From Lonicera japonica (Eukaryota > Streptophyta > Magnoliopsida > Dipsacales > Caprifoliaceae): a stretch of DNA of 64,000 bases. The stretch lies in the NCBI GenBank assembly GCA_021464415.1, contig CM038469.1, positions 26,715,736 to 26,779,735 of the forward strand, written 5' to 3'. Positions 4,797-33,537 of the stretch are shown here, in pieces. The translations under genes and the position numbers were made by a program. The notes under the pieces were generated by a model. That model was not told the DNA's origin. It did no database searches and saw only the letters and a list, made by a program, of their open reading frames with translations. How positions within the stretch are numbered: position 1 is the first letter of the stretch; each line of letters starts with the position of its first letter.

Positions 4797-4800
4797 AATT

Positions 4801-7429: not shown

Positions 7430-8926
7430 GAAGAAATTTGGACTAATGCCATGGATGAAGAAATTGCCACCATTGAAAAAAATAATACTTGGGAGCTTGT
7501 AGATCTACCAAAAGGAAAAGAAGTGATTGGATTAAAGTGGATCTACAAGACCAAGTTCAATGAAGATGGCAGTATTAAAAGGCATAAAGCCCGGTTGGTT
7601 GCAAAAGGCTACTCACAACAGCCCGGAGTAGACTTTAATGAAACTTTTGCACCCGTAGCCCGCATGGAAACTATAAGAACAGTTCTTGCAATAGCGGCAC
7701 AAATGGAATTGCAAGTGTTTCAACTTGATGTAAAATCTGCCTTCCTAAACGGTGAATTGGAAGAAGAAGTCTACGTTGAGCAACCCGAAGGATATTTGAG
7801 GAAAGGCAAAGAAGACAAGGTATACAGGTTGAGGAAAGCCTTGTATGGCTTAAAGCAAGCGCCGCGAGCATGGAATAGCAAGATAGACAAGTATTTTCAG
7901 CAAAATGAGTTTGAAAGAAGTAAAAGTGAGCCATCATTGTACGTAAAAAAGGAAGGTACGCAAGATTTTCTTAATGTTTGCCTTTATGTTGATGATTTAA
8001 TTTACACTGGTACTAATACAAAGATGGTGAAGAATTTTAAAAGTGCAATGATGAAGGAGTACGAGATGACAGATTTGGGACTCATGAAATATTTTCTCGG
8101 TATTCAAGTGCGGCAAACGAAAGGGGAGATATTTATCTCTCAAGAAAAGTATGTTGAAGATCTGCTAAAGAGATTTCAAATGACCAATTGTAAACCAATT
8201 TCTACTCCAATTGCGCTAAATGAAAAATTACAAATGAGCGATGGGGCGCCAAAAGTCAATGCAAGAGATTATCGAAGCTTGGTGGGATCTCTCATTTATC
8301 TCACCAACACACGGCCCGATATTGTTTATCCTGTTAGTCTTATTTCAAGATTCATGAGTGATCCAAGCAGATTACATTTTGTAGCAGCAAAAAGAATTTT
8401 ACGTTACATTCAAGGAACCAAAAATCATGGGCTCAAGTACATAAAAGAACAACAAAATAAACTTGTTGGTTTCACTGATAGTGATTGGGCAGGATCTCTC
8501 GACAATCGGAAAAGCACTTCTGGGTTCGTGTTTTGCTTAGGTTCAAATGTGATTTCTTGGTCTTCAAAAAAGCAAAAGACCATAGCTTTGTCATCAGCAG
8601 AAGCTGAGTACATTGCAGCAACGGATGCAGCTTGTGAAGCAATTTGGCTAAGGAGAATTCTCACTGATTTGCAGCAAGAACAAAAAGAAGCAACAATCAT
8701 CTATTGTGACAACATGTCTGCCATCTCTATGACAAAGAATCCAGTGTTTCATAACCGCTCAAAGCACATTGAGCTCCGTCATCATTTTATTCGACAACTG
8801 GTACAAAAGGAGGAAATCCAACTAGAGTTCGTGAACACAAACGAGCAGTTGGCCGACATTTTTACTAAAGCAGTTGCATCGGAGAAATTCAACAAGTTCA
8901 AAGCTCAAATGAAAATTACAAATTAA
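7430..8926 (+). CDS. Copia polyprotein, second part: reverse transcriptase and RNase H
   Basis: This is the same reading frame as the upstream half, cut off by the TAA at 7427. The first ATG is at 7451. The reverse transcriptase begins with the copia hallmark of an alternating charged and aromatic linker (NNTWELVDLP, then KARLVAKG), and the catalytic YVDD box is at about residues 179-182 counted from that ATG. RNase H follows, with DSDWAG, SSAEAEY and YCDN carrying the acidic residues. Length and motif order are normal and no other stop is seen. If the stop is not bypassed, reverse transcriptase would not be made, so the copy would need help from another element. Confidence 0.93.
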   Translation, partial: EEIWTNAMDEEIATIEKNNTWELVDLPKGKEVIGLKWIYKTKFNEDGSIKRHKARLVAKGYSQQPGVDFNETFAPVARMETIRTVLAIAAQMELQVFQLDVKSAFLNGELEEEVYVEQPEGYLRKGKEDKVYRLRKALYGLKQAPRAWNSKIDKYFQQNEFERSKSEPSLYVKKEGTQDFLNVCLYVDDLIYTGTNTKMVKNFKSAMMKEYEMTDLGLMKYFLGIQVRQTKGEIFISQEKYVEDLLKRFQMTNCKPISTPIALNEKLQMSDGAPKVNARDYRSLVGSLIYLTNTRPDIVYPVSLISRFMSDPSRLHFVAAKRILRYIQGTKNHGLKYIKEQQNKLVGFTDSDWAGSLDNRKSTSGFVFCLGSNVISWSSKKQKTIALSSAEAEYIAATDAACEAIWLRRILTDLQQEQKEATIIYCDNMSAISMTKNPVFHNRSKHIELRHHFIRQLVQKEEIQLEFVNTNEQLADIFTKAVASEKFNKFKAQMKITN

Positions 8927-8933
8927 GGAGGGG
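8922..8933 (+). promoter_or_regulatory. Polypurine tract
   Basis: A purine-rich run (TTAAGGAGGGG) overlaps the stop codon region and abuts the 3' LTR, the expected primer site for plus-strand DNA. Confidence 0.8.
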
Positions 8934-9246
8934 TGTTAAAAATATAATTTGTAATTTTGTATTTTCTAGAATACTCTAGCCCAAGTGTACTAGAAATACC
9001 ATGTAGTATCTTTCTAGAGAAATCTAATTATCATGTACCTCAAATAGATTTAAGTACATAGAGAATTCTAGATTCCAAGGAAATATCTAGGGTTCTAGAC
9101 TTTTCTTTAATAGACTATAAATTGATGACCTTGTAACCAAATGTGTTAGAGAAAAAACAAGAAAAGCAACTAAAATATTGTACTCCTCTCCTTTCCAATT
9201 AAATAAAATTCTGCTTTTCCACTTAAGAAGCATTTTACACCCAACA
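8934..9246 (+). repeat. 3' LTR of copia element
   Basis: 313 bp, with the same ends as the 5' LTR. The three differences seen are A/G and C/T in the first 40 bp and A/T near 9176. Confidence 0.95.
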
Positions 9247-9251
9247 CAATC

Positions 9252-14731: not shown

Positions 14732-15872
14732 TGTGAGAATCCGCAAATGCGACCCCCGAGTCTCGATCCCGTTGCTTCTGTTGGTATTGATAATTCATAT
14801 CATGTGTCCCTATGTTTTATTTCTAGATGCAATAGGGTTCATTCAGAGTCGCCAGTACATTTTACGAGAAAGTAGACAAAATGGTTGTGTAGTAGGAAAG
14901 GCTACATATAAGCCTTTCTTTACACATTAGTCTGCGAAACCAGGATTCTATAGAGTTCGAAAACTATATTACGGTTTGGGAAGGTGTTAAGCACCCATTC
15001 CTCCCTTTCGGTCTCTAGTGGTCTTATATGTTTATTTTATGTTGAAAAACTCGGATGCTTTTACTAATAGTCTACTACTTTCCAAATGAGAAAGCCCTAA
15101 TTTCTAGAAAAAGCGGGGAAAGGGATAAAAACCTTTGTGTTCCGAGATCCGATGTTTTTGTTATTGAAAGATGTAAATACAAATGGCAAAACCTTTTTAT
15201 TTTGAGAGAGTTTCCCGTATTATTTCCTCGGATAATGACGGTTTTCTCGTATTGTGATTACTTTTGTAAAAAGTTCGGATCTTGTATCAGGACTAACTTA
15301 ATATGGAATCAGAACTCTTTGAGGGGAGTTTTATCAGACACGTCGCAGTCTATAAAAAAGACAGGATATGTTGATTTTAATTCCTAGATAAGTCTTATCA
15401 GTCCGGGTTTTGAAAACAGAATTTTATCCGGATGATAATGTACTTATACTTCTGATTTTAGAAATGATTTTATCGGGGTCTTTTGTTTTGAAAGCGATAG
15501 ACTACTTTGTAACTTGGCAATAAGTTTATTCAAATCAAATGTGGACTGAATAACAGAAGTAAAACAAGTACACAAATATATAATTTAAATACTAGAAGAT
15601 ATTTTTTTTACCTTCCCGACGAAAATAATAATAATAAGAAAGAAAATATAATACGGCAGAGAGATCTCCGGCGGTAATGATCTTTTCCTTCTTCAGATAT
15701 TTCCGAGAATTCGATTCTAGAGACGGGGCACGTCGAGTGTCGAGAATAGATTCGATAATTCCTCAGAAATAAGATTATAATAGAAAGTCTTGACGAAAAA
15801 CTAGAAAATCAGATATAAGCCAGTAATTCTCCAAATCCTAGTTGCTGTCCTTGAACCCTTGGGGGTGTTGGC

Positions 15873-15881
15873 CTATTTATA
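15873..15881 (-). promoter_or_regulatory. TATA box of the LTR promoter
   Basis: On minus it reads TATAAATAG, 15 bp downstream of the nearest palindrome. In the other LTR the same site reads TGTAAATAG, so the 5' LTR promoter is weakened there. Confidence 0.7.
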
Positions 15882-15896
15882 GTGCGGGGGGAGGAT

Positions 15897-16103
15897 TGTC
15901 GCGCGACATTTCTCCAGAAAGGGCAAGTGTCACGCGACATGTTTACCAATGTCGCGCGACATACGGCTGAAGTGATGTCTCTGACAGACTGATGTGTCAA
16001 AGAGTGGATGGTCGGGGTCAGAGGGGTTTGTCGCACGACACAGAGTGATTGTCGCGCGACATACCAGTGACTGTCGCGTGACACACTGATATGTCGTGCG
16101 ACA
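15897..16103. promoter_or_regulatory. Seven-copy palindrome cluster in U3 (3' LTR)
   Basis: TGTCGCGCGACA or a one-base variant lies at 15897, 15928, 15950, 16029, 16050, 16072 and 16092, each 12 bp long. Three copies are perfect palindromes (15897, 15950, 16050). The variants change one inner base (TGTCACGCGACA, TGTCGCACGACA, TGTCGCGTGACA, TGTCGTGCGACA). Five of the six gaps between neighbouring box starts are 20-31 bp; one is 79 bp. The position just upstream of the TATA box makes this a candidate enhancer. Confidence 0.75.
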
Positions 16104-16244
16104 ATCCCTTTTAAAAACAGGTTTATTGGCCAACAAACCCTTTCGGGGTAGTTTCTGGTGCTCGGGTGGGCCCCGGACTCCAAAAACAGTAGTTCTCGTA
16201 GGTCGTTAGGGTTCTTGCGGGGGTCACAGATCGGGGTGTCTACA

Positions 16245-16256
16245 GACCCTCTCGAC
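16245..16256 (-). promoter_or_regulatory. Polypurine tract of the Tat element
   Basis: On minus, GTCGAGAGGGTC directly precedes the 3' LTR. Confidence 0.6.
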
Positions 16257-16446
16257 TTAAGTTTTTTGCTTGCAAGGAATTGAGGCGACTGGAAGAGACC
16301 GTGATTCATGGCTCCCGCAAGAACTCTAAGAAAGTGTGCGTATGCAAAAAGTGTTCATGAGTGCGTCCGGAGAGGGTTTTGTATTTGGTTTTACCTCTAG
16401 AGAGGGCTTTGTTACCTCATTGCCTCTTTCGAGGACTTTTATTTTG

Positions 16447-17320
16447 CTCCACTTGCCTCAGATGGGAGGACTACCATTGCTCCATTGTGCCTCTTTAGGA
16501 GGGCTTTGTTCTTCTCGCCTCAGGTGGGAGGACTACCATTGCTACACTGTGCCTCTCTGGGAGGGCTTTCGATCTTCTCGCCTCAGGTGGTAGGACTACC
16601 ATTGCTACACTGTGCCTCTCTGGGAGGGCTATGTTCTTCTCGCCTCATGTAGGAGGACTACCATTGCTACACTGTGCCTCTCTGGGAGGGCTTTGTTCTT
16701 CTCGCCTCAGGTGGGAGGACTACCATTGCTACACTGTGCCTCTCTGGGAGGGCTTTGCTCTTCTCGCCTCAGGTGGGAGGACTACCATTGCTACACTGTG
16801 CCTCTCTGGGAGGGCTTTGCTCTTCTCGCCTCATGTGGGAGGACTACCATTGGTACACTGTGCCTCTCTGGGAGGGCTTTGTTCTTCTCGCCTCATGTGG
16901 GAGGACTACCATTGCTACACTGTGCCTCTCTGGGAGGGATTTGTTCTTCTCTCCTCATGCGGGAGGACTACCATTGCTACACTGTGCCTCTCTGGGAGGG
17001 CTTTGTTCTTCTCGCCTCATGTGGGAGGACTACCATTGCTACACTGTGCCTCTCTGGGAGGGCTTTCGATCTTCTCGTCTCAGGTGGGAGGACTATCATT
17101 GCTACACTGTGCCTATCTGGGAGGGCTTTGTTCTTCTCGCCTCAGGTGGGAGGACTACCATTGCTACACTGTGCCTCTCTGGGAGGGCTTTCGATCTTCT
17201 TGCCTCAGGTGGGAGGACTACCATTGCTACACTGTGCCTCTCTGGGAGGGCTTTGTTCTTCTCGCCTCAGGTGGGAGGACTACCATTGCTACACTGTGCC
17301 TCTCTGGGAGGGCTTTGATC
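16447..17320. repeat. 62-bp minisatellite, about 14 copies
   Basis: The unit contains GGGAGGGCTTTGTTCTTCTC and GGGAGGACTACCATTGCTAC. Copies differ by a few bases, for example TTCGATCTTC in place of TTGTTCTTC. Because 62 is not a multiple of three and the unit has no stops, all three plus frames stay open for over 200 codons; these are repeat artefacts, not genes. The location, between the 3' LTR and the gene region, matches the hypervariable 3' region known in Ogre/Tat elements. Confidence 0.95.
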
Positions 17321-18255
17321 TGTAAAAAAAGAAAGAAAATTGCCTCTAGGGGGCTTTTGTGAGTATTTTCCCCTCTGGCGAGGGCTTGTGTTTGTGATTT
17401 GCCTCGAGGAGGGCTTGTGTTATATTCTTGTGATGATGGTTGTCTCTCTCTTTAGACTGCTAGAGTGAGAGAGAGAAATTTTGGTGAGAGTGAAAAGAGC
17501 TTCTCGAGGTCTAATCTTTATTTAGATGTCCATTTTCTTGTATCTTTCTGAATTTTACTCTCATGTTTTCCTCAAGTGAGGATACTTCTCTCCGAAGGCA
17601 GTTTTCAGATTTCTTTTGCTCTCCGCAGAGTGATGATTCGAGGTTTTCCAAACCATCTCTCCTGTATCGTGCTGAAAAGAAAATTTGTTTAAAAGTTCAA
17701 TCTCTAATCTCTGTTCTCTGTTCTCTTCTTTCAGTGGGCCCACATCGTATTCTGTTTTTCGATGCCCTTATTTCTCCCTCTTTTGGGAAAGACTTTTCCT
17801 GGCCTTCTCTATTTTTGACCGGGAGTTTTTTTATCCCTTTGTCGTGATCAGGAGCCTTACTCACCCAAAACGAAGCCCTGAGCCGGTTTCGGCCTAGCTG
17901 TCACTTTTGGTGTGGCTCTCCCTGTCACTCTCGCATTTCTGTTTCTCTCGTTCGCTCTGGGCACTCATGCGGGTTCTTTCTCTTTTCTACTTTTTCAATT
18001 TTTTCTATTCCCGTCTTATCTTGATATTTGGCTTTCCTCATTGATGGTCTCGGTCCTTCTTGGGAGATCAGAGACTACTTTTAACTGTTTGTATCTTGTT
18101 CTCGCATTTTTGGAGAGATGATTTGGAAGTTTTTCCTTGAATTTTCATCCTGGGTGTACGGTTTTTAGCAAGTTTTTCAAAAATTGTTTCTCTGAAGTAC
18201 CCCTGCAGGAGAAAAAATGAGGCAAAGGTCAAAAAATCAGGGGAGGGGGACAATA
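17321..18255. other. Tat 3' region, no gene seen
   Basis: Pyrimidine-rich on plus, with several short open frames in T-rich sequence that show no family resemblance. It links the minisatellite to the promoter region of the first antisense gene. Confidence 0.5.
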
Positions 18256-18338
18256 TGTAGCGCGACATTTTGGTGTAGGACTCATTGTCGTGCGACAATG
18301 AGCCCATTTGTCGCGCGACATACTTGTGTATTATATAT
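18256..18338 (+). promoter_or_regulatory. Three palindromes plus TATA box upstream of antisense gene 1
   Basis: TGTAGCGCGACA at 18256, TGTCGTGCGACA at 18286 and the perfect TGTCGCGCGACA at 18309. A TATATAT box lies at 18332-18338, 11 bp beyond the last palindrome and about 140 bp upstream of the ATG at 18477. A pyrimidine-rich leader follows. Confidence 0.65.
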
Positions 18339-18476
18339 GCCCCTTGCTGAGCTCATTCCACCTCATTCTCTCCTTTCTCTTTCTTTCTCCAGCTCTCTTT
18401 CTCTCTTTTCTCAAGTGCGGAAGCCCTGCCGCTTTTCTGATTTTTCGATTTTTCTCACTACTCTCTATATACACAG

Positions 18477-21400
18477 ATGGATCCCGCAGAGCCAAATCGA
18501 CTTGAGGGTGACCAAGAGGAGGTTACTTTTACTGACGCTCAGGGAGTCATCCGTTGCAGCCCTCACCATGATGACTGGGAGGACCTTGTCTGGTATGGTG
18601 AGGACGGGGTGGACCGCGGTCGGGCAGTGGTTTATCGAGAGGTCACTCAGGCTGCTCCAGTCTCGGATGTTCCGTGGCTCTTGATGGAGCCCGCTTCTCA
18701 TGAGATCCGTCGACGGTCTCTGGTATGTCTTTAGAGTTTCTTTCCTTTGTGTATTTATTCGTTCTATTACTTTTGTCGTTTCCTGCATGTATTTTAAACA
18801 ATGTTAGTATGCATGTCTGCCTAGAAATATCGTCCGATTTAGCGAACACATACATTTACCTGTGATACCTCTTAGGTTTTTAGAAAACTACATAATTTAC
18901 CCTTATAACCCTATATCTCTCATAATTACACCAAAGTACCCTAAGGTTTGGAAAATTACATAATTTACCCTTACAGCCCTATAACTCTCATAATTACACC
19001 AAAGTACCCTCAGGTTTGGAAAATTACATAATTTTACCCTTACAACCCTATATCTCTCATAATTACACCAAAGTAGCCTCAGGTTTGGAAAATTACATAA
19101 TTTACCCTTATAACCCTATAACTCTCATAATTTACACCAAAGTACCCTCATGTTTGGAAAATTACATAATTTACCCTCATAGCCCTATATCTCTCATAAT
19201 TACACCAAAGTACTCTCAGGTTTGGAAAGTTACATAATTTACCCTTATAACCCTATATCTCTCATAATTACACCAAAGCACCCTCAGGTTTGGAAAATTA
19301 CATAATTTACCCTTATAGCCCTAGATCTCTTATAATTACACCAAAGTACCCTCAGGTTTGGAAAATTTACAAATTTACCCTTATAGCCCTATATCTCTCA
19401 TAATTACACCAAAGTACCCTCAGGTTTGGAAAATTTACATAATTTACCCTTATAGCCCTATATCTCTCATAATTACACCAAAGTACCCTCAAGTTTGGAA
19501 AATTATATTATTTACCCTTACAACCCTATATCTCTCATAATTACACCAAAGTACCCTCAGGTTTCGAAAAATTACATAATTTACTCTTAAAGCCCTATAT
19601 CTCTCATAATTACACCAAAGTACCCTCGGGTTTAGAAAATTTACATAATTTACCCTCATAGCCCTATATCTCTCATAATTACACCAAAGTATCCTCAGGT
19701 TTAGAAAATTACAAAATTTACCCTTGTAACCCTATATCTCTCATAATTACACCAAAGTACCCTCAGGTTTCAGAAAATTTCATAATTTTATATTTTTGCT
19801 TTGTCTGCAGTGGGTCAGCCGAGGTTGGGGTTCTCCCAACACTATTTCCTTAGAGTGGGGACAGGCACCGGCCCCTGTCCATGAGTTGCTCCTTGCGACT
19901 CCATTTGGTCCTCTTTTCGATGCCCTCCTGGAGCGGGTATCTAGGGCAGCTATGTTGGTGTCAGCTCTGGCCTGCCATTGGTGGGACACCACTCATGCCT
20001 TCCACTGGAGCTGGGGGGGAGATGACGATGACCCCCTGGACCTATTTGCTCTGACCGGGATTCCTTCAGGGGGTCCCTATCCAGATTGATGTCCCTTTGC
20101 GTCTGACGGCAGAGGGCATTGTGGGCGCACTCGCATGGTTTCTTGAGCGACGGAGTTCGGGCGACACGATCCCTCGGGCGATTTTTGTTACACGGCTAGC
20201 CACAAAGAGAGCTCGGTTAGTTGCTTTAGGGGTGCCGATGACCCGTCAGGAGGCTCGTCAGTATGCCCATGTTCTTCTCTTGCTGACGCTCCATGATCTG
20301 TTTGAGGCCAGAGGGGGGGACACAGCCCATCTCTGGTGGTTGCCTTATCTCAGAGACTTCAGCATTATGTTTGACTATGCTTGGGGGGGCTTTATTCTGG
20401 CTATCTTGTACAATGCTATGGACCAGGTTTCTCGCCATCTAGCCCTAAACCTCAAGGGCTTTTCTTTGCTGTGGGAGGTATACATTTTTGTTCCCTTATC
20501 TTTGCTTCAGTCCCTTATATTTATTATATGTTGTTGCTGATATTCTTTATGTCTCCTCTTCAGAGTTGGTTCGTGGCGTATACCAGTTTGGGTCGTGCCC
20601 AGGTGGATCTCCTCGTTGAGAACAAGGATCAGTTTCTTTTTCTCCACCGATTCATTGCGGGGAACTACAGGGCTCCCTATGTATACCGGACTCGGGAGAC
20701 CGGAGCTGCTGCCGTCCATGACCTGTTGGAGGAGCAGGTAAATATCTTAGTATTCTTTCCTTTTTAATAATTTAACTAGTAAAATAGAATACAAATAACT
20801 GAAATAAAATTTGTTCTTATTCAGATTGAGTGGCCCCCCTAGGGTGACTTGGGTCTCCATTTTGGATATGGCTGTGCTTTGACTGCCTCGAGGACTAGGC
20901 GGCTTATCAGGGACGAGTACGGCCTTCACTTCTATTTGGGCGAGAGAGTCATTCGCCAGCACACACCGGCCCAGTGGCCCCAAGTTCCTCTATTTTCGTC
21001 GATTCTGATGAGGCGGACGGGTGAGATCGACCCGGTGATGGTGCAGGCATTGGTCGACGGGCTCAGTTTTTAGACGTTCACTAAGGAGGGAGACTACGCT
21101 GCCTTCGCTGCCCGTTACTTGATGAGGGAGTCAAAGGGGACTTGGGGACGGGTCTTCTACGAGAGGTACTGGGCGTTGGGCGGTGATCCCAACTATATAC
21201 GAGGACAGACTCATTTGTCCCGGACGATTCCTGGTCAGCTGCCGCCTGTCCCTGATCAGTGGGACAACATTTTGGACTCTGATGATGACAACCCCGAGGG
21301 AGAGAGGGACGTCCCTGCCGGTGTTGAGGGAGGCAATGATAGGCCCGAGGGAGGTGATTATAGACCCGAGGGCGGTGAGGGAGGTGGGACATCGGCTGTT

Positions 21401-22417
21401 CCGGAGCAGCCTCCTCAGACTACGCCTAGAAAGGAGCAGCCTGCCGAGGGTTTTGAGTTCCCCACCGGTCCGTCAGCATCTCTGGGGGCTATTTTTGAGG
21501 CTGCTAAGGCTGTTGCGGGAGGTGCAGCAGATTTTTCGGAGTGGTCCAGGGAGCCTGTGGACTTTGGGGTCGACTATGAGCAGTTTGGGCGGACCCCTCC
21601 TGCTGCTGCGACCACTCCTTCTAGCGGGGTCTCGCCTTTGAGAACGACGGCTATGGTGGATCCTCCAGGTGTTCGTACCTATGCCACACTGACCCCTCTT
21701 CCGTCGACTGTTATGGGCCCTTTGGCCTAATCTCCGGGTCTCGGTGGCTCATGCTCTCGGCCTCCCCTGTTCCCGATTCGCGAGGAGGGTGGGTCCACTT
21801 CTGCTGATGTTCCGACGGACTCGTCTATTCCTTCGATAGATCTTCCTCCACTTCCCAGAGATATTTCTTATGTCGGCGCTGGTTTACGTCGATACACTGT
21901 TCTTGAGTATCCTCTACTTGAGGACGCTTTTGACTTCTTGGGTGGTCGCTCTGACGATGAGGTACCTACTTTAACTTTTCTTGATACTTTTATATCTATA
22001 TTTATTTATTTCGACTATGCTGATTCTCTTATCTTATGTCTTTCACAGCGTGTGAGTGTACGGGTGGCGGATCTGAGGGCTTGGCATGCCCAGCAGCTCT
22101 ACAACTGGAACCTTCTCCAGTACGTCGGTCGAGACCCTCCAGCATACATGCGTGACTATCAGAGGGCGATTGACATTTCTTTACGGCCGGGCGACCCTCT
22201 GACTTCTTCTCATGCTCGGATGGCGTCTCGGAGGAGTAGTAGTCGGACTTCTAGGCGCTCTCGGTCCTCAGTGATCCGTCCTACGGCTCCTGTCCAGTCG
22301 ATGGGGCCTTCCCAGGTGATAGTCCCTCCTACTCAGGGTGTCCCAGTGGTTGACCTTATTCCCGAAGAAGGCTCGGGCGATAGTGGGAGCGTGTCAAAGC
22401 GCGCTCGAGTAGATTAG
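18477..22417 (+). pseudogene. Antisense gene 1 of the Tat element: spliced PMD-like protein, broken
   Basis: This gene runs opposite to gag-pol. Five exons join in phase 0 at GT-AG sites: 18477-18722, 19811-20477, 20564-20737, 20825-21961 and 22049-22417. Exon 2 carries a plant mobile domain-like core (HAFHWSWGG, DLFALTGIPSGG). Exon 4 encodes an acidic, Pro/Gly-rich region. Exon 5 ends in an Arg/Ser-rich stretch and KRARVD, a likely nuclear signal. Intron 1 (1,088 bp) is mostly a 68-bp minisatellite. The reading frame is broken by a one-base shift near 20070-20090 and by stops at 20840-20842, 21071-21073 and 21728-21730. Extra ORFs, some antisense, are known from Tat elements; PMD proteins also exist as host genes. 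Function in the element is unknown. Confidence 0.75.
18866..19790. repeat. 68-bp minisatellite inside intron 1, about 13-14 copies
   Basis: The unit includes TCAGGTTTGGAAAATTACAT, ACCCTATATCTCTCATAATT and ACACCAAAGTACCC. It fills nearly the whole intron between the donor at 18723 and the acceptor ending at 19810. It is AT-rich, unlike the GC-rich exons beside it. Confidence 0.93.
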
Positions 22418-22751
22418 CTTTTCTTTCCTGCACTTTTTGTTAGTTTGAAACAGATATGTAGTTTTATTTTTAGATATTTAGACAGAGATTTAGTTTCTTG
22501 AAAATTGTTCTTTTATTAGTTTTTATAAAAATCTTTATTTGTGTCTGATGATGCGTTTTTTATTCCTTATCTATGATGAAAAGGTAATAATTACATGAAT
22601 CGATAATTTTAGGAGCCATACCTTGTAATGTGGCGATACTTAGGGTTCCTGCAAAAGAACAAAGTGAGTACAGTGTATGCAGAAGTGATTATTTTGGCAA
22701 AATGACTCTTACGGGTAAGAAAAGCAAAAATAGGGTGACACCAAAGGGGAT
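22418..22751. other. Spacer between the two antisense genes
   Basis: This is the presumed 3' untranslated region of gene 1. It is T-rich, with AATAA-like signals on neither strand that I would trust. No coding segment is seen. Confidence 0.4.
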
Positions 22752-22829
22752 TGTCGCGCGACAATCCCTCCTGGATATGGGTTTGTCGCGCGACAAACAG
22801 GCACAGGACCCTCTTTTTTGCTATAAATA
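22752..22829 (+). promoter_or_regulatory. Two perfect palindromes plus TATA box upstream of antisense gene 2
   Basis: TGTCGCGCGACA occurs at 22752-22763 and 22784-22795 without any mismatch. TATAAATA follows at 22822-22829, and the ATG is 40 bp further at 22869. This is a compact, textbook-spaced promoter architecture. Confidence 0.72.
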
Positions 22830-22868
22830 CACCCATCTTCCTTCCTTCATCCCCACACCCTTCCCAAA

Positions 22869-24126
22869 ATGTCCTCTTATCGCACAAATTCTAATTTTTC
22901 TTATGTTAAAACTCGAGATGCTCTGATATCTTCTGAGAATGGTTTGAACTTTGGTGCTTTTAGCCCTTTAGTGGGCTGGTGCCATCGTCCTGTAGATTTT
23001 TCCTTTTTGCTGGGCGCTTTGTATTTCTGGAGCCCTACAGACCATCTTTTCCGTTTCGGGCTAGATGAGCTCTGCCCGACTTATGAAGAGTTTTCCTGGC
23101 TGTTGCGTTCTGACGTTCGCCTCCCAATGGCTGTCCCCATAGAAGAAATCGGTCCTTGAGACATGTTGATTGCTCTGTTGGCCATTCCCCAAGCGGCCTG
23201 TGATGGTTTTATTGTCGACGGGCTTCTTGACCTCCATAAAATGGTGAGGTTCTTCCATCGTTATGAGGACAGAGCTTCTTATAGTCTGGGGCGTACTGCG
23301 GCGGCCATTGATCTGTCTTGTTTCTGATATGCTACTGGTGATGGGCTCTTCCCGTGTTGATCCGACTATTCTGAGTTTGATTTATCATGCTAGGAATGGG
23401 GAGTCCATAGTGCCTATCGTTCTTGTAGAAACTCTGAATGGCCTAGATGATCTTCAAAGGGGAGTTTCACCCTTCTTCAGGGGAAGTCCACGCTTGCTAT
23501 ACATATGGCTATTGGAGCGTTTTCGATCAATGGGTTTTAACGGGGTTCGGCTTGACAACACGACGCACTTTTTTCGTCGACCCCTCTTTGGTGCTTTGAC
23601 CATGTCTTCCTCTGATTGGACGGTGTGGTTTTTGAAGAACTTTCGGGCTATCCGGTGAAACATTCCTTGGTGGAAGCTGAGGGCGATGGTGCTTAATACA
23701 GGGGGTCAGAACTATGTTCGGCTCCGCGGGCTCTGGTTCACCTCCTTTTATCTCCCAGGACGTCTTCTTCGGCAGTTCAACATTCCTCAGGAAATTCCCC
23801 TTAGTCTGAACAACTTCTCCTCTGAGTCTAAATTTGTGACCCCGCATGTTTCTTTATCGGTGGAGAGGATGTGGCGTGCTCGACTGACTCGTCAGTTCAA
23901 CTATGTCCGTTTCGATATTACCAGGCCCCTCCGGGCTGATATCATCTGTTCTCGTTGGGGGTCTTTGGAAGGGGAGCTAATTGATGATCCTTTCAAAATG
24001 GAGTGGTTCCGGTTCATGGATTCTGAGCCCACAGAGGGGAATATTATTTTTGCGTACCAGATCCTGGATGAGGCTCGAATTGATTTGGCTACTGAGGACC
24101 CTGCTTGGCCAACCCCTAAGGATTAG
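22869..24126 (+). pseudogene. Antisense gene 2 of the Tat element: DUF7745-like protein, broken
   Basis: A single-exon gene starting ATG TCC TCT in good context below a TATA box. The N-terminal part reads FWSPTDHLFRFGLDELCPT, the pattern of a DUF7745/plant-mobile-type domain (a trait-less stretch followed by FRFG..E+.PT). Further on, VLVETLNGLDDLQRG and LYIWLLERF, then PWWKLRAMVLNTGGQNYVRL and FYLPGRLLRQFNIPQE, follow the order expected for that family as I recall it. The frame is broken by TGA at 23157-23159, a shift near 23315-23340, and TGA at 23656-23658. It ends with TAG at 24124-24126, less than 220 bp before the convergent end of pol. Biochemical role unknown. Confidence 0.72.
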
Positions 24127-24340
24127 TTTTTTCTGTATGCTGTATCTCCTTTGTAACTTTCGGTGTTCTGAACCACTTTTAATAATATATGAAGGACTGT
24201 TTGTGGGAAATAAATTTCTTTATAATGTTTAAACCGGGCCTGAAGTCACTTCTCAGGTTGCGTACGTTCCCCTTTTGATTTTTTCAAAAACACATTTTCA
24301 AGTTGGGGCTCAGGTTTACGTAGTTCTTATCTATACATAT

Positions 24341-25810
24341 CTATTGGTAATACTTCTTCAAACGATCCATGTTGACTGGTGAATGCAGTAATTTTCCGTC
24401 CAAGTCTGTGAGTATGGCAGCACCCCCAGTGTCAATCTCTTTGACAATGTATGGCCCTGTCTATTTTTGCCCGAACTTCCCTCTTGGGTCCCTGGCTGGT
24501 TCTCGAATTTCTTTCAACACGATGTCGTTCTCATTGATACCCCGAGTCTTCACTTTCTGATTAAATGCTCGAGCAATTCTCTTCTGATACCCTTGGTGGT
24601 GGCATGCGGCTCTCAATCTCTTCTCATATAGTAAGGCCAGCTCGTTATAACGTGCCTGGACCCACTCCAGCTCGTTAACTTGATTCTCTCGTATAACTCT
24701 GAGGGAAGGGACCTCCAATTCAACAGGGAGGACTGCTTCCATCCTGTATGTAAGAGAAAATGGGGTTGCCCCGGTAGAGACCCTCTCAGTGGTGCGATAT
24801 CCCCACAATACATATGGAAATTTCTCGGGCCAGTCTCGACAGGTGTCGGTCATCTTGCTCAGGATATTCTTCAGATTCTTGTTGGCGGCCTCAACTGCCC
24901 CATTGGTTTGCGGTCTGTATGGCGAGGATATGTGGCGGGTGATACTATATTCTTCCATGACTGAATTACCCTCTCCTTCGAAGTGGGTGCCGTTGTCTGA
25001 GATGATCTCATTTGGGACCCCATACCGGCAGATGAAATTCTGCCTGATGAATCGGGCAACTTTCCTAGCATCAAGGATTTGAAAAGACTCGGCCTCTACC
25101 CATTTGGTGAAGTAGTCGATGGCCACTAGTATGAATTCATGGCTGTTACTTGCTTTGGGCAAAATCTTTCCAATAATGTCGATTCCCCAGGTTGCGAAAG
25201 GCCAGGGAGTAGTCATGTTGTACAACTCTTTTGGGGGAAGTTTCTGAGATTTAGCATAGATTTGGCACTTGTGGCAACGGCATACGTGGTTGACGCAGTC
25301 GTTCTGCAGGGTAGACCAGTAATAACCTTGTCTGATGATTTTGCGGGTAAGTGTATGGCCGCTCATATGAGGTCCACAGTCGCCCCCATGTATCTGATCC
25401 ATTACTTTGACGGACTCTTCTTCAGTGAGACATTGGAGATGGGATCCGTCGTAGTTTCTCTTATATAGCCTTCTAGCGCAAAGTATGAATCTTGATGCTA
25501 ATCTTCTGAGTGTAACCCGTGTTCTCTTGTCCGCTTGCTCGGGATACTGATGGTTTTTCAACAGGTTCGAGATGTCGTAAAACCAAGCGGTTAAGTCCCC
25601 GTTCTCTTCATTCTCTACCTCCAGGGCCATGCAGTGTGATAGTTGTGATCTTCTTTGCACTGTAAGACTTATTTCTTCCATCCCCTCCGGGATATCGATC
25701 ATAGATGCCAGGGTTGCTAGTGCGTCAGCAAAACTGTTTTGTGATCTGGGGACATAGTAAAACTCTGAATGCTCAAGCCTTCCTGCGACATCCTCCAGTC
25801 GGGCGAGGTA
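24341..25810 (-). pseudogene. Tat integrase (pol C-terminal part)
   Basis: The integrase inserts element DNA into the genome. On minus, the zinc domain reads HGGDCGPHMSGH, then CRCHKCQ. The catalytic core has WGIDIIG, ISDNGTHFE and NGAVEAANKNL, which supply the Asp, Asp and Glu. A C-terminal tail continues (REPARDPRGKFGQK). A TAG at 24461-24463 stands where this family usually has Trp. The same frame then runs on to a natural-looking stop at 24341-24343. The upstream join to RNase H needs a one-base shift near 25811, so this part is not in frame with the rest. Confidence 0.88.
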
Positions 25811-26594
25811 AAGGGACTAATTTTTCGTCTCTGATCTTCCATTCCTTCAGAACTTGGTGGACCACTAACGCTGAATCTCCGTACACTTGTATTCTCTTTA
25901 TACCCCTTTGGAGCGCGATCTCTAATCCGATTATACAGGCTTCATACTCGGCCATGTTGTTAGTGCAGAAGAAGTCTAGACGGTATGATACCGGAGAATG
26001 AGTTTGGTCTGGAGAGACTAACAGGATGCCTATCCCGTTTTCATTTCTGTTGGCGGCCCCGTCGAAGTACAATTTCCAGTCTTCATCGATCTCAACATTC
26101 ATGATAGTTTCGTCTGGGAATTCGGCTTCTTCTAGCATGTCCCCCAATATTGGATTGTGGGCTAGGTAATCAGCTATGATCTTGCCTTTGACTGCCTTCT
26201 GAGTCATGTAGGTGATATCGAATTCGGAGAGCAAGAATAACCATTTTGCCATACGGTTTGAGAGAGCTGGTTTCTCGAAGAGGTATTTCAAGGGATCAAT
26301 TCGTGATGCCAGGATGACCGGGAAAACCAGCATGTAGTGCCGTAACTTCTGTATTACCCAGACGAGGGCGGTGCATGATTTTTCCAATAGCGTGTAGTTT
26401 ATCTCAAATGGGGATAATTTCTTGCTGATGTAGTAGATGGCCTGTTCTTTCCGTATATCAGTCAGATGTTGGGCTAGCATGGCCCCTGCAGCTGAGTCGA
26501 TGACGGTTTGGTACAAAATTAGTGGCAGTCCGGTCTGTGGTGGGGCTAATACTGGGGGGTTGGAGAGATAGTCTTTGATTCTATTAAAAGCCTC
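25811..26594 (-). pseudogene. Tat RNase H region, two RNase H segments
   Basis: The first segment is the RT-linked RNase H (YYISKKLSPFEINYTLLEK, then connecting sequence). The second is an archaeal-type RNase H with LYFDGAANRNENG, NNMAEYEACIIGL and VYGDSALV, supplying Asp, Glu and Asp. A second, additional RNase H is a hallmark of Tat elements. The segment starts right after the TAG at 26595-26597 and ends at the frameshift near 25811 (one extra base in a T/A run). A host-like RNase HI gene is excluded by the flanking pol domains. Confidence 0.85.
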
Positions 26595-26597
26595 CTA

Positions 26598-27407
26598 GCA
26601 CTGATCGTCCCATTCTCCTGGTGAAGATTTCCTCAAGAGTTTGAAGATGGGTTCGCAAGTCTGAGTAAGTTGAGAGATGAACCTACTGATGTACTGCAAA
26701 TTACCCAAAAATCCCCGGACTTCTTTCTCGGTACGAGGCTCAGGCATGTCTCGGATAGCTCGAACTTTGGCAGGGTCTACCTCGATTCTCTTTTTACTAA
26801 CGACATAGCCTAGGAGCTTTCCTTTGGTTACCCCAAACAGACATTTCTGCGGATTGAGTCTCATCTGGTACTGGCGGAGGCGGTCAAAAAAGGCTCGTAA
26901 GGCTGGTACATGGTCTCCCCTCTCCTTTGACTTGATTATCATGTCATCCACATACACTTCTACTTCTTTGTGAATCATGTCATGGAAGATAGCGGTAGCT
27001 GCCCTCTGATATGTTGCCCCAGCGTTCTTCAGCCCGAATGGCATGACGGTGTAGAAGTACGTCCCTCACGGTGTGATGAATGCTGTTTTCTCTTGGTGAT
27101 CCGGGTGCATCTTGATCTGATTATACCCAACGAAATCGTCTACGAATGACTTCAAAGCATGGTTAGCGGTATTATCCACTATCAAATCAATGTTGGGTAA
27201 TGGAAAATCGTCTTTCGGGCAGGCTTTATTGAGATCTCGGTAGTCTAGACACATACGGACCTTCCCATTTGCCTTTGCAACGGGCACAATGTTGGCTAAC
27301 CATGAAGGGTACTCGATCACTCGTAAGAATCCCACACTCAGTTGTTTCATCACTTCTTCTTTCACTTTCAGGGACCACTCAGGTGTAAGTTTTCTTAACT
27401 TCTGCTT
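26598..27407 (-). pseudogene. Tat reverse transcriptase
   Basis: The fingers and palm read WLANIVPVAKANGKVRMCLD, FVDDFVGYNQIKM and MPFGLKNAGATYQR, with the catalytic YVDD at 26943-26954 and the thumb-proximal LGYVVSKKRIEVDP. A TGA at 27066-27068 sits between TP and GTYFYTVMPFG, where the family usually has Trp, and the domain ends at a TAG at 26595-26597 in a position expected to be Gln. At its N-terminal edge a one-base insertion in a C run near 27407 separates it from the protease part. Confidence 0.9.
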
Positions 27408-29319
27408 GACGGGGTTTAAACTCCGGCTTGGTGTGTATCTCGTGCATGACTATCTGGCTGTTCAAACCTGGCATATCTGCATAGGACCAGGCAAAGACAT
27501 CCACGTACTCATTCAGAGTTTGTGTGAATTCTTCTTTTTCTGTCTCGCTTAGACTTGCCCAAATACGGACCTCTTTCCTTTCTTCTTCCGTCCCGAGGTT
27601 AATCAAAAGAGTATCTCCCTCCTCACTCTGTATACGTTGCTCCTCCCGTTCAGGGTGTTCGTTTAGTTTTTCCATCTCCATATAAGCAATTACAGAATCA
27701 AAACTAAAAGGATAACGCAAAACAGAGTCTTCTTCATTAATAATAGTGCTTACAGGTAGAAGTTTAAAAAGTAAATCTAGGAGCGACTCCTCCCTAGTCT
27801 TACCCCCACTCTTATCTCTCACCCTTATAATTTCACTCTTTTCCCCCTCTTTCTGGTAATCTGGATCGGTATGTATTAAGTGTACAGGGTCATCTCTTGG
27901 TTCATCATCCCCTAGAGCCATGATGTCAAAGAGATCTCCAATCATTTCTTTCTCTTCATCGTCCTTGTCTTCATTTTCTTCTCTCGGCCCTATCATCAAT
28001 TTGGTAGAGAAGCTGTGTATAACATTTTCCTTGAGATAGAGGTCCTCTTCATAGAAGATTTTCCATCCTGGAAGGTTATCTCCGTCGCTGTTTCTCCAAG
28101 GCTCCTGAAAGCCGCAAAAGGGGAAGTCTTCTCTTTCTTTGGCGAAAAACCCATTCAGAGAGCTAAAACTCGGACACTGATGCCCTCGACCCTTTTTCTC
28201 TTGGTTGTTTTCTTCGGTGTGCCGGTACCCCAACCCTTCTCTTTCATGCCTCGTCACTGGTTCTAAGGCCTGAAGTAATCCTGGTTGTCCCATTCCCAGA
28301 CTGGCTCTAGGTAAGTATTTCATCATTCTCAGCATATTTGTGATCTTGGTGCTGAGACCGGGGATATTATCAGGGGGTAGATACTCGATTCTCTGGGTGG
28401 TGAGAGTTTGTACTTGAGGCTCGTAAGAAAAGCCTCCCAGCTGTATGCTCTGGCTCCCGATGCCCAAAACAGGTAATTCCAGATCTGCCAAGGTCCTCTC
28501 AGGATCTCCTTGGATGGTGATTATATTCCCTTCGAACGGTATCTTGATCTTCTGGTGTAAGGATGAGGGGAGTGCTCCTATGTCATGTAGCCATGCTCTT
28601 CCCAACAGGAGGTTGAAACTGGAGGGAATGTCTATGATTTGGAAGTCGGCTGGAAAGTTTTCGGGACCGACCATGAGATCTAGCTTTAGGGAACCCAGAA
28701 CGGCCCTTCTAGTGTTGTCATAGGCTCTAACGGTCACTGCTGATGGAGAAAGTTCTGAGTCTAAGATACCTAGACATTTGGCAGTCTTCAAAGGGCAGAC
28801 ATTTATGGTTGACCCGTTGTCGATAAGGACCTACAGCAGGATTTTCCCTTGGGTCCGGATAGTAATATGGAGGGCTAGACTGTGTTTCTTCCCCAATGGA
28901 GACAAGTCTTCATCTGAAAATGACAGACTTCTTTGGACTGTAAGGGACCCGATCATGTTTGGTAGTTGTTCGGGCGTAGAGTTTGGTGATATGACGGCCT
29001 CATCTAGGAGTTTGATGAAGGCGGTCCTGTGAGGTTTGGAGGCGACCAAGAGGCCCCAAATGGTGATGTGTGCATGAGTTTTCTTCAACTGTTCCAGTAC
29101 TCGATCGTCTCCTATTTCTTCAGGAGGTGGTGATTTCTCGGTATCCATTGGGGGTGGCTGGTATACCCTCCCTGAATGGATAATTTGTTGTATCCAAAGG
29201 GATGCTGGGTCTGACCCCTCTGAGGCTTCCGATGATTCTAGTTTCGTAGACCAACTAAAAGTTTCGGGGAGGTTTTTGTCATACAGATTATCTCCTTGGG
29301 AAGACCTCGGGGCTTCCAT
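27408..29319 (-). pseudogene. Tat protease and pol linker
   Basis: The aspartic protease site reads VLIDNGSTINVC (DNGS in place of DSGS or DTGS), encoded at about 28795-28830. The lines DFQIIDIPSSFNLLLGRAWLHD are the usual C-terminal part of the fold. A TAG at 28831-28833 lies only two codons before the active site and cuts it off from the N-terminal part (29319-28834, KTHAHITIWGLL ... HSLALHITIRT). After the protease comes an acidic linker of about 300 residues (DKDDEEKEM), leading to the reverse transcriptase. Confidence 0.82.
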
Positions 29320-30953
29320 GATTGTTTCTTCTTATCCTGGGTCCATCCTATCCCAGATTTTCCGGAATTGGTCTTGATTGTAAGTGGTTGGGGGATCCCT
29401 TGATTTGCTTTTCCTAAATCCTGCCCGGGTAGGAAGTTCATCTTAGTCATCCACTGGTCAATTATCAGATTGAGGCCTAGGGCAACTTGAGCCTTCTTTG
29501 GTGGCACAACTGGTGACTTGTAGGCTGGGTCGTCTCGAATAAGTCCCACGGGATCAAAGCCTTCTTCATCAGTGGTTAAGGCATTAATTCCCGCAGGTGG
29601 AGCATGGTTGGGAAGGGAGTTGTTAGTAATATTGGGCCCACCGGGTGCAGGGATGGTTCCAGCTTCAATGAGGTCCTGGATACGATGGCGAAGAGCCAAG
29701 CAACGTTCCGCGTCGTGGCCCGCTGCTTGATGGTACGCGCAGTTCTCATTCATTCTCCAGGTGCTGGGAATAGGGTTTGGTGGAGGGCGCGAGTTGAGTG
29801 GAGTGATCAGTCTGGCCTTTCGGAGTAGTTCCAGGCTTTTGACCAGGGTAGTGGGAAGGGTGCAGAAGTTTCTCCTTTTTTTGGCCTCGGTGCTTGAAGA
29901 GTCTCCTTGTGTAAGCCAACTCATCGGGGGAGTTTGTGGGGACTGTTGAAATGGGTTTTGTTGATATGGGTATGAGCTTAGCTGATTTACGGCTAGAGTG
30001 ACCGTCTTTCTCCCGGTGTATGAGGCTTTCTTGGTATCAGTCTCTGCATTCTTGCCCAATTCTTCCTCTACTTGTGACCCCATGCTCAACAAGGCTCTGA
30101 AGTGTGGGAATACATGCTTTCCCATGCAACCTAGTACAGCTGGAGTGAAATTCTTCTGTATGATCTCCAACTGTTCTTCCTCATCGGGCCGTTTGGACAT
30201 TTGGGAGGCCATTTCTCTCCAGCGTGTGACGAAATCGCTGAAGCTTTCCTTTTCTCCTTGTTTGGCCATTTCCAGGTGTTTACGGGTAATTTCCAAATCC
30301 TCATTGGACCCGTATTTGGTTATGAACTCCTTGACGATATCTCCCCAAGTTTTTGTGTGGTGTCTCTCCAAATCGAAAAACCATCTTAGGGCGGCCCCCG
30401 TGAGAGTCATGTGAAAGGCTTGAGCTAACTCCGGCTCTCCACAACCGGACACTTGCATGGATCTGATGTAGGATTGAAGATGGGTTTTAGGGGGTGTGGT
30501 TCCTGTGAATTTGGTGATGGAAGGGAGTTTGAATCCCTGGGGTAATCTTGCTTCCGGATAGAGGGAGAAGGCATTCATATCTATAATCTCGTCTGCTCCT
30601 TTTATTAGGGAAATCCCCCTTTGCAGAACCTTCATCTGCTCTTTCAGTTTCTTCATTTCTTCACTCTCTCTTGACACCTGATCGGGCTTTTCCCGAGCTA
30701 TAACCGATTCTGCATACACTGCCCGAAGTCGGTTGATGTCTAGGTATTTATTAGGAGGGGCTACTGGGGCCTGTGGTGGAATAGGTCTTGCGGGGACTTG
30801 TGGCCATGGCTGGTATTGGGGATCAAGGCCTTGTTGAGGTTGCGGCCAGATGATGGGTGGCTCTTGCTGTTGGTAAGTGGGGCCTGAATCCAGGGCCCAT
30901 TGGTTCTGATTGTTGGGATCGGTCTGAACGGGACCGGCTATGACAGGGCCCGT
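29320..30953 (-). pseudogene. Tat gag
   Basis: Capsid-type protein. A Pro/Gln-rich N-terminal stretch precedes the conserved gag core (LPSITKFTGTTPPKTHLQSY, then ALRWFFDLE and TWGDIVKEFITKYGSN). A CAYHQAAGHDAERC motif near 29700-29745 is the Cys/His cluster typical of Tat gag, with His at the second Cys position. The frame has no ATG of its own: upstream in-frame stops occur at 30954-30956 and 31071-31073, so the true N-terminus, probably near 31.1-31.3 kb, is disrupted. A frameshift near 29310-29340 separates gag from the protease part. Confidence 0.85.
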
Positions 30954-30956
30954 TTA

Positions 30957-31961
30957 GGGTGGATTGGTTCCTTGAACTGGGGGAAGTACTTCCGATGACT
31001 GCCCTTGATTCGGATCTCGATTCGGTAGTAGCCGTTCAAACCCCAGTGGTGCGGCTCGTCCGGCTGACAACTATTCTACTCAGACTCGGGTACTCTGTTA
31101 CTCGATTGCGAGGCTCGCTAGATTCGTGCTGACGGTCATTAGCAAACGATGCATCTCGGCTAAAGTTGGCTGAGCTGCAGATGCCTCGACTAGGCTCTAA
31201 TCTGTCTCTTAATTCTCGCGTCCATCGGCCATTGCAAATGTACTTGGTCTCACTAATCTCCCGGTATGATCTCGACCGGCCCAACCTTTCAGACTGTCGT
31301 TGTTCACGGCTGTAGACAAAACCACGTGGTGGAGATGAAAGAAGACTACGATGCGACTCGATTTTTTGCCAAAAGAACCACTAAAAATTGCCGAAAAAAG
31401 ACTCGGGTTTTAAGAAGGTGTTGTAAAGTAAGCCGTAAGGTAGTACATCCCCTACGACTGTTTGATAAGTGTTTTAGCCGACTCGATCTTATATGCAGCG
31501 CAGGTGTACGAACGGTTAAGACTTCAGGCTCCCTCCTATTTGGCAAGACCTTGCGATATACCCCAGGGGTGGGTACGTGCAAGAGCCTTTTGATATACTT
31601 CCCGGGTACGTGAGTGTTCTTGTCACTAGATATACCTCGGGGGCGTACTTGGCCAAGGAGAGTGGAAGTAAATGCTTTCGGTTTATGTTGGCCCAAGCAA
31701 GCCAACTCCCTACTCACTTATAATACTTCCGAGGGTTTGGGGTAAATTCACACTCGTAAAACCAATGCATGATTTGTGAAAGTGCGTGCGAAGTTCGAAA
31801 GGTTGGTTTCAAAAATATCATTATCTTTATTACGTATTTTTGAAAACTTCTATTTTTAGAAAAAGGTTTCTTCTCAATCAATTAACATAAGTAGGGAAAG
31901 CAGTAAAAGAAAGTATTCAATAAACAAAAAAGTCCACATATAAGAGTCTAGTTTTCTAGTG
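30957..31961 (-). other. Tat leader between primer site and gag
   Basis: It probably includes the original gag N-terminus around 31036-31284, where a minus frame of 82 codons is rich in Arg and Ser. The remainder has no supported coding sequence. Transcribed leader sequence is expected here. Confidence 0.5.
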
Positions 31962-31979
31962 TCCCCAGCAGAGTCGCCA
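31962..31979 (-). promoter_or_regulatory. Primer-binding site, tRNA-Arg type
   Basis: On minus, TGGCGACTCTGCTGGGGA begins two bases after the 5' LTR. Ogre/Tat elements are known to use an arginine tRNA, and this motif is the one I associate with them. Confidence 0.75.
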
Positions 31980-31980
31980 C

Positions 31981-33537
31981 TGTGAGAATCCGCAAATGCG
32001 ACCCCCGGGTCTCGATCCTGTTGCTGGGCGTCTAGAACGTCGGAACGGATCCCGTCGTTCCATTTGCTTTCGTTGGTGTTGATAATTCATATCGTGTGTC
32101 CCTATGTTCTATTTCTAGATGCAATAGGGTTCGTTCAGAGTCGCCAGTATGTTTTACGAGAAAACGGACAAAATGGTTGTGTAGGAGGAAAGGCTACAGA
32201 TAAGTCTTTCTTTACACATTTGTCTGCGAAACCAGGATTCTATAGAGTTCGAAAACTATATTACGGTTTGAGAAGGTGTTAAGCACCCATTCCTCCCTTT
32301 CGGTCTCTAGTGGTCTTATATGTTTATTTTATGTTTCAAAACTCGGATGCTTTTACGGACAGTCTACGACTTTCCAAATGAGAAAACCTTAATTTCTGGA
32401 AAAAGCGGGGAAATGGATAAAAACCTTTGTGTTCCGAGATCCGATGTTTTTGTTATTGAAAGATGTAAATACAAATGGCAAAACCTTTTTATTTTGAGAG
32501 AGTTTCCCGTATTATTTTCTCGGATAATGACGGTTTTCTCGTATTGTGATTACTTTTGTAAAAAGTTCGGATCTTGTATCAGGACTAACTTAATATGGAA
32601 TCAGAACTCTTTGAGGAGAGTTTTATCAGACACGTCGCAGTCTATAAAAAAGACAGGATATGTTGATTTTAATTCCTAGATAAGTCTTATCAGTCCGGGT
32701 TTTGAAAACAGAATTTTATCCGGATGATAATGTACTTATACTTCTGATTTTGGAAATGATTTTATCGGGGTCTTTTGTTTTGAAAGCGGTACACTACTTT
32801 GTAACTTGGTAATAAGTTTATTCAAATAAAACGTGGATTAAATAACATAAGTAAAACAAGTACACAAATATATAATTTAAATACTAGAAGATATTTTCTT
32901 TACCTTCCCGACGAGAATAATAATAATAAGAAAGAAAATATAATACGGCAGAGAGATCTCCGGCGGTAATGATCTTTTCCTTCTTCAGATATTTTCGAGA
33001 ATTCGATTCCAGAGCCGGGGCACGTCGAGTGTCGAGAATAGATTCGATAATTCCTCAGAAATAAGATTATAATAGAAAGTCTTGACGAAAAACTAGAAAA
33101 TCAGATATAAGCCAGTAATTCTCCAAATCCTAGTTGCTGTCCTTGAACCCTTGGGGGTGTTGGCCTATTTACAGTGCGGGGGGAGGATTGTCGCGCCACA
33201 TTTCTCCAGAAAAGGGCAAGTGTCGCGCGACATATTGACCAATGTTGCGCGACATACGGTTGAAGTGATGTCTCTGACAGACTGATGTGTCAGAGAGTGG
33301 ATGGTTGGGGTCAAAGGGGTTTGTTGCGCGACACAGAGTGATTGTCGCGCGACGTACCCGTGATTGTCGTGCGACACAATGATATGTCGTGCGACAATCC
33401 CTCTTAAAAACAGGTTTGTTGGCCAACAAACCCTTTCGGGGTAGTTTCGGCTGCTCGGGTGGGTCCCGGACTTCAAAAATAGTAGTTCTCGTAGGTCGTT
33501 AGGGTTCTTGCGGGAGTCACGGATCGGGGTGTCTACA
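31981..33537 (-). repeat. 5' LTR of the Tat element
   Basis: 1,557 bp. It carries the 44-bp segment missing in the other copy. It contains the same seven-palindrome cluster with other point changes and has lost a consensus TATA box at the equivalent site. Confidence 0.93.
33189..33396. promoter_or_regulatory. Seven-copy palindrome cluster in U3 (5' LTR)
   Basis: Boxes at 33189, 33221, 33243, 33322, 33343, 33365 and 33385. Only 33221 is perfect; the others have one change each, such as TGTCGCGCCACA, TGTTGCGCGACA, TGTCGCGCGACG and TGTCGTGCGACA. Most changes are C to T in a CpG, as expected from methylated cytosine decay. Confidence 0.72.

Follow-up and report, generated by a model that had tools for sequence, protein, structure and literature searches.

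A 12-bp palindrome at the LTR promoter and both antisense promoters of a Tat retrotransposon in Lonicera japonica: a putative shared regulatory site

The Ogre subclade of the Tat retrotransposons is marked by an extra open reading frame (ORF) upstream of gag. Excerpts of PMC6317226 place the plant mobile domain (PMD) in 57% of the Ogre elements of Ty3/gypsy, where it is typical and not universal, and describe an additional RNase H between the RNase H (RH) and the integrase (INT) of Ogre and Retand. Maize Grande gene23 is transcribed from its own promoter (PMC7264820, in excerpt), and earlier papers already describe antisense genes, promoters belonging to them and regulatory roles that they may have (excerpts of PMC7264820 and PMC11963269), where the function of the Tat antisense genes is called undetermined or unknown. 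As for motifs, the noncoding regions of VANDAL21 in Arabidopsis are dense in YAGTATTAY, which is rare in other transposable elements and is bound by an element-encoded protein, VANC, and the motif arrays turn over quickly (PMC5735166, in excerpt). Here we analysed a stretch of 64,000 nucleotides of Lonicera japonica (contig CM038469.1, positions 26,715,736 to 26,779,735; hereafter the window), which contains a Tat-type long terminal repeat (LTR) retrotransposon whose LTR promoter and two antisense promoters have one 12-bp palindrome in common. Like Grande with its gene23, Silene Retand, and Ogre with its extra ORFs (eORFs), this element has a long region between pol and the 3' LTR, antisense genes, tandem arrays and an additional RNase H. 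In contrast, a box common to the LTR and the antisense promoters is not described in the excerpts of PMC7264820 and PMC11963269. The original prediction, made from the window alone, knew of no description of such an arrangement, and a search of openly licensed PubMed Central (PMC) papers agrees: it turned up no paper describing a single box for both the LTR and the antisense promoters, and for the 12-mer itself it gave one paper, on an unrelated subject. We argue that the palindrome is very probably a functional regulatory site shared by the three promoters.

Palindromic boxes at three promoters

The element lies on the minus strand between a 3' LTR (14732..16244) and a 5' LTR (31981..33537), both on the minus strand and with TG...CA ends, and two genes that run opposite to it are placed between pol and the 3' LTR. 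If one mismatch is allowed, the window contains the palindrome TGTCGCGCGACA 19 times, grouped in four clusters, and a scan at two mismatches gave no sites beyond the 19. Seven boxes form an array in U3 of the 3' LTR (15897..16103; starts 15897, 15928, 15950, 16029, 16050, 16072 and 16092), three lie in the promoter of antisense gene 1 (18256..18320; starts 18256, 18286 and 18309), where they are in register across 24 aligned copies, two lie in the promoter of antisense gene 2 (22752..22795; starts 22752 and 22784), and seven form an array in U3 of the 5' LTR (33189..33396; starts 33189, 33221, 33243, 33322, 33343, 33365 and 33385). As the arrays of the two LTRs are copies of one array, the independent sites number 12 and not 19. 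In 100 dinucleotide shuffles of the window, the mean was 0.39 sites and the maximum 2. Each promoter has a TATA box close to its palindromes. That of the sense (LTR) promoter (15874..15881, minus strand) is 15 bp from the nearest box, the TATA-like box of gene 1 (18332..18338, plus strand) is 11 bp past the last box in the alignment, and the TATA box of gene 2 (22822..22829, plus strand), which reads TATAAATA in 16 of 16 aligned copies, is 26 bp past the last box; the TATA of the 5' LTR has one base changed. The sites, clusters and TATA distances claimed in the original prediction were thus reproduced at every position.

It had also been claimed that the clusters are not one duplicated block. 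This holds for the three promoters, whose flanks differ, but not for the two LTR clusters. When the boxes were masked, no pair of the window's promoters aligned above shuffles, and a common ancestral block behind the three clusters was rejected on this basis. The 7- to 10-base words that the window's three promoters share fall without exception within (A/T)TTGTCGCGCGACAA(A/T), and the two positions next to the box on either side show a preference for A/T. A palindrome longer than 12 bp was likewise rejected, as the flanking bases are without consistent excess complementarity. In another copy (L013), a 52-bp stretch of the LTR array is 84.6% alike to the gene 2 box pair, the likeness being largely the two boxes themselves.

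Neighbouring boxes are spaced by 20-23 or 30-34 bp and, more rarely, by 42-43, 72-73 or 79-81 bp; no other value was found among 91 and 98 spacings below 130 bp, with one spacing of 24 bp in the gene 1 promoter set. The shorter spacings correspond to roughly 2, 3 and 4 turns of the helix. The number of boxes per LTR ranges from 4 to 12, and the LTR with 12 boxes (L058:577-959) has the 81-bp gap twice, an apparent internal duplication of the array. Of the 14 LTRs read, 13 have an intact TATA box, which lies 24-25 bp from the start of the nearest palindrome. Two further dyads were seen in U3. A 20-bp palindrome (16120..16139; GGTTTGTTGGCCAACAAACC in the 5' LTR at 33413-33432, with one change in the 3' LTR copy) may have been an eighth box that diverged while staying symmetric, because copies L014 and L016 have a box-like dyad, TTTGTTGCGCAACAAA, in its place past the last U3 box. 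The other, a TGACA...TGTCA-like dyad (15980-16002) that separates the two U3 box arrays and was seen by eye in most LTRs examined, may be the site of another factor.

Retention, confinement and decay of the boxes

Family members without boxes at the antisense promoters, which would speak against shared control, were sought among copies chosen by similarity or position and not by their boxes. A similarity search with 411 bases of the gene 1 promoter, boxes included, gave 41 rows out of 1,811 first-look candidates, of which 40 were scored. All 20 copies retrieved from these matches (the window's own included) have three boxes with at most two mismatches, spaced by 30 and 23 bp (24 in one copy); the matches listed are those closest to the window's copy, so that older copies may have lost boxes. 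For gene 2, we took 12 stretches lying 3.75-5.85 kb beyond 12 gene 1 promoter matches; the promoter is present in 11 of them, always with two boxes at a spacing of exactly 32 bp, and the twelfth (L053) gave no match. With the window and four more copies (L005, L015, L022 and L023) added, the promoter was found in 16 of 17 stretches and both boxes, at up to two mismatches, in 16 of 16. No promoter without its boxes was therefore met among the 20 of gene 1 and the 11 of gene 2. Of the original claim that a shared regulator links sense and antisense transcription, the part that concerns shared cis-control is supported by this retention; the nature of the regulator is taken up below.

In the host genome (886 Mb), the exact box occurs 29,561 times, against 1 occurrence of the reversed control, which has two CpGs to the three of the box, and about 53 expected by arithmetic for a 12-mer at equal base composition. 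Exact box pairs 8-11 bp apart number 8,257, against 0 for the reversed control. Two samples, both from the first 10.4 Mb of contig C1, tell where the boxes lie. The 50 distinct exact places among the matches listed, inspected within 14 fetched stretches, comprise 38 in LTRs, 9 in gene 1 promoters and 3 in gene 2 promoters, with none elsewhere. Of 20 box clusters listed beyond 4.6 Mb, 14 were assigned with the boxes masked, and all 14 belong to the same Tat family (13 in LTRs, that is, within or between LTR matches, and 1 in a gene 1 promoter). In the places sampled, this dense short motif is confined to the noncoding regions of the element. The two-box pattern was found 0 times in viral contigs and, among genome contigs, in 3 bacterial contigs, which we took as chance, the plant DNA covered being the host genome.

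To compare the boxes with their surroundings, we aligned 24 gene 1 promoters, the 20 above and four met through their boxes (L005, L011, L012 and L014, the last with spacings of 31 and 23 bp), and pooled all pairs. The box columns differ in 511 of 9936 comparisons (5.1%; 2.1% without CpG transitions), against 1722 of 8004 between the boxes (21.5%), 12.7% upstream and 11.8% downstream, and the three boxes are exact in 18, 15 and 19 of the 24 promoters. In the LTRs, a column was counted as box if either row had a box in it. Within four elements (LTR versus LTR), 18 of 300 box columns (6.0%) and 46 of 1170 other columns (3.9%) differ (Fisher p 0.15), whereas between eight lineages (28 pairs) the figures are 145 of 2072 (7.0%) and 1256 of 7720 (16.3%), so that by total counts the box/other ratio is 1.53 within elements and 0.43 between lineages. 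Since the boxes decay no slower than the rest within elements but slower between lineages, selection in the mobile, replicating lineage is likely to be behind their conservation; a mutational cold spot would not fit these total counts.

Several observations weigh against the boxes as a conserved regulatory site. The gene 2 boxes vary as much as their spacer (9.5% versus 8.7%, with 8.2% downstream and 19.2% upstream; the two boxes are exact in 8 and 7 of 16 copies), and only the figure without CpG transitions (2.7%) favours the box. Without CpG transitions, the LTR ratio is 0.39 within elements (4 changes in 300 columns) and 0.27 between lineages, a weak contrast, so that the argument for selection rests on total counts. 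The copies and the pairs are related, and the counts are thus not independent. LTR arrays of like boxes may align box to box without orthology, a misalignment of which gene 1 is free because its three boxes are fixed. A near-identical gene 1 pair (L011/L012) differs at 3 of 36 positions in the boxes and at 0 of 29 between them. Finally, strict phasing fails at the 79-81 bp gap of U3, which spans about 7.5 turns of the helix and so not a whole number.

The remaining variation also bears on what the boxes may be. The 113 boxes compared have 63 changes in all. At the three CpGs, C-to-T and G-to-A changes account for 47 of them, and 8 fall in the outer TGT and ACA. This decay is as expected of methylated cytosines and fits the earlier idea that the CG-rich palindrome is a methylation target. 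The box could then be a repressor, an insulator or a methylation target that silences the element, or be read by a host silencing factor, for which its three CpGs and the mark left by methylation would speak. But any CpG-rich site in silenced DNA is expected to decay by CpG transition, and the slower change of the boxes between lineages is easier to reconcile with use by the element than with use by the host, unless self-repression benefits the element; we consider a silencing role improbable. Least probable of all is that the boxes are by-products of slippage, template switching or gene conversion, or RNA hairpins, with no role in the promoters. The varying number of boxes per LTR would agree with such an origin, and the boxes of the antisense promoters would also be present in the sense RNA. 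On the other hand, the spacers diverge more than the boxes in most pairs (but not in the gene 1 pair L011/L012, nor in the gene 2 pair window/L015, which has 0 for both), box number and spacing are kept in 24 copies of gene 1 and 16 of gene 2, and the arrays adjoin TATA boxes on both strands; a hairpin would moreover gain from longer arms, and beyond 12 bp complementarity is not consistently raised in the flanks.

Antisense genes and the factor that may bind the box

Antisense gene 1 (18477..22417, plus strand, ATG at 18477) has putative introns, and its frame at 20097-20540 matches PF10536, the plant mobile domain (1.3e-7, 31.6 bits), below the cut-off of 34.9. In copy L014, gene 1 has a longer open frame, and PF10536 scores 58.8 bits, above the cut-off. 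The C-terminal piece of gene 1 (22049-22414) is basic and ends in KRARVD after VVDLI (VVDLT in L014); we take the former to resemble a nuclear localization signal and the latter a SUMO-interaction motif. Antisense gene 2 (22869..24126, plus strand, ATG at 22869) has an interrupted frame in the window copy, and its last part gives a weak PMD-like match (E 0.012, below cut-off). The only other Pfam match of the antisense pieces was to one apicomplexan microprotein model, below cut-off, and no VANC-family protein was among the Pfam matches of the antisense pieces scanned. A search for PMD relatives returned 2 and 9 unnamed short proteins, of no help for tracing the box.

The median ratio of nonsynonymous to synonymous substitution (dN/dS) was calculated from pairs with dS above 0.05, and copies that matched less than 60% of a piece were left out. 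In gene 1, it is 0.07 for the PMD exon and 0.09 and 0.20 for two other pieces (5 of 5 copies each), and 0.11 for the first exon (24 of 24 copies); the gene 2 pieces have 0.13 (12 of 15 copies) and 0.18 (5 of 15 copies). For comparison, gag has 0.08 and integrase 0.10 (3 of 3 copies each), and two wrong frames per piece, used as control, gave 0.88 to 2.82. Both antisense genes are under purifying selection, and their proteins thus matter to the element.

We propose that a sequence-specific DNA-binding factor of dyad symmetry, probably a homodimer, would recognize the palindrome, and that the homotypic arrays, in which the boxes mostly follow one another at about two or three helical turns and end shortly before TATA, would serve as the upstream element of the LTR promoter (for the genomic RNA) and of the promoters of antisense genes 1 and 2. 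Protein binding at the boxes would raise transcription and coordinate sense and antisense, and the common box suggests that one protein, perhaps the element's own, controls all three promoters. We regard it as evenly balanced whether the factor is encoded by the element. An element protein is favoured because the boxes are confined to one family in the places sampled, the site is strict, the boxes stand at the antisense genes' own promoters, and these genes are constrained; the most likely candidate would be the antisense-encoded PMD protein, or a complex recruited by it. The element would then switch itself on and autoregulate, as a VANC- or Tax-type transactivator does, and once a copy is silenced, methylation at the CpGs of its boxes may keep the factor off, with decay to follow. 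Slightly short of even is how we would put the fuller proposal of a self-contained regulon, in which the antisense PMD protein, as a palindrome-specific transactivator or anti-silencing factor, would turn on, in trans, its own gene, its antisense neighbour and the genomic promoter in the family's many copies.

Two considerations tell against an element-encoded factor. Direct DNA binding is not a known activity of the plant mobile domain, and the same observations would be expected if a host factor, for instance an IDD protein, were at work. Many plant LTRs rely on host factors, and the family could have recruited a host transcription factor for all three promoters, in each of which the box stands beside TATA. 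The half site TTTGTCG, present at several gene 1 and gene 2 boxes, presumably resembles the site of the INDETERMINATE DOMAIN (IDD) zinc-finger proteins, in the literature on which this word turns up, and TGTC...GACA within the box presumably resembles the auxin-response-factor (ARF) repeat. Against such recruitment, the 50 exact places among the matches listed and the 14 further clusters all belong to one family, although modest host use of the box would hide under the element's many copies, and the IDD and ARF half sites are shorter and less strict than this 12-bp palindrome, which varies little. A host factor is a close rival, and one against which we lean.

The element and its place among known systems

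The Ty3/gypsy element is 18.8 kb long, and its LTRs are 95% identical over 1483 alignment columns. The bases flanking it, CAGAC and CAAAC, differ in one base (a 5-bp target duplication is the Tat trait compared). The primer-binding site read from the sequence (31961..31979, minus strand), one base off the 5' LTR, is one that we take to be of the tRNA-Arg type, and the insertion site is, by eye, presumably a copia gag frame. By Pfam, gag-pol (24461..30719, minus strand) holds gag, reverse transcriptase (RT), RNase H, RVT_3 and integrase, in several separate frames in the window copy. The domain order, with RT_RNaseH followed by RVT_3 (25773-26516, minus strand) and integrase in 24461-25702 (minus strand), fits Tat, and the element has the additional RNase H between RH and INT by which this lineage is recognized. 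It also has the PMD eORF of the Ogre subclade, at the scores given above for the window copy and for L014. TRP28 (PF04195), the hallmark of Retand, was not among the Pfam matches obtained with 12 antisense pieces at a threshold of E 0.1, the frames being broken and the introns unmapped. Two tandem arrays, with units of about 62 bp and about 68 bp, lie at 16443-17321 and 18879-19788, the latter within the putative first intron of antisense gene 1. Other repeats of the window are a pair of 317-bp, LTR-like repeats around two long ORFs (4484-9250; 98.7% identical), a field of short diverged repeats (51902-57502; about 72-89% alike) and a 760-bp tandem duplication (59852-61371; 95.6%).

Among systems in which a protein of the element acts on a motif of its own, VANDAL21 VANC is the nearest working analogue, as its dense short motif also lies in the noncoding regions of the element. 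It differs in being a DNA transposon with another protein family and another, non-palindromic motif, and binding and demethylation have been shown for VANC (PMC5735166, in excerpt), whereas binding to the palindrome is here a prediction. A second comparison is with MAIN and MAIL1, host PMD proteins, for which 25 of 26 commonly downregulated genes carry one promoter motif (excerpts of PMC7156037 and PMC9899485). The likeness is that PMD proteins are needed there for the expression of genes mostly with one promoter motif; the DOWN motif as given for MORC1 (CATGCAGTTT) is unlike the box, and the targets are host genes. The same excerpts leave direct DNA binding by MAIN/MAIL1 open, which counts against a PMD protein as the binding factor itself.

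By tying the antisense promoters to the LTR promoter, the box makes the function of the antisense genes directly testable, and the 29,561 exact sites in one genome would allow the action of one putative factor to be followed across a very large number of dispersed sites. The deltaretroviruses HTLV-1 and BLV have U3 enhancer repeats of about 21 bp, an element-encoded transactivator and an antisense gene. They resemble the present element in the U3 repeats and the antisense gene and differ in that their repeats bind a host factor together with Tax; to our knowledge, their antisense promoter does not share the same palindrome. If true, the self-contained regulon would assign a role to an antisense gene in an LTR retrotransposon of plants and would be a control circuit in plants like that of the complex retroviruses.

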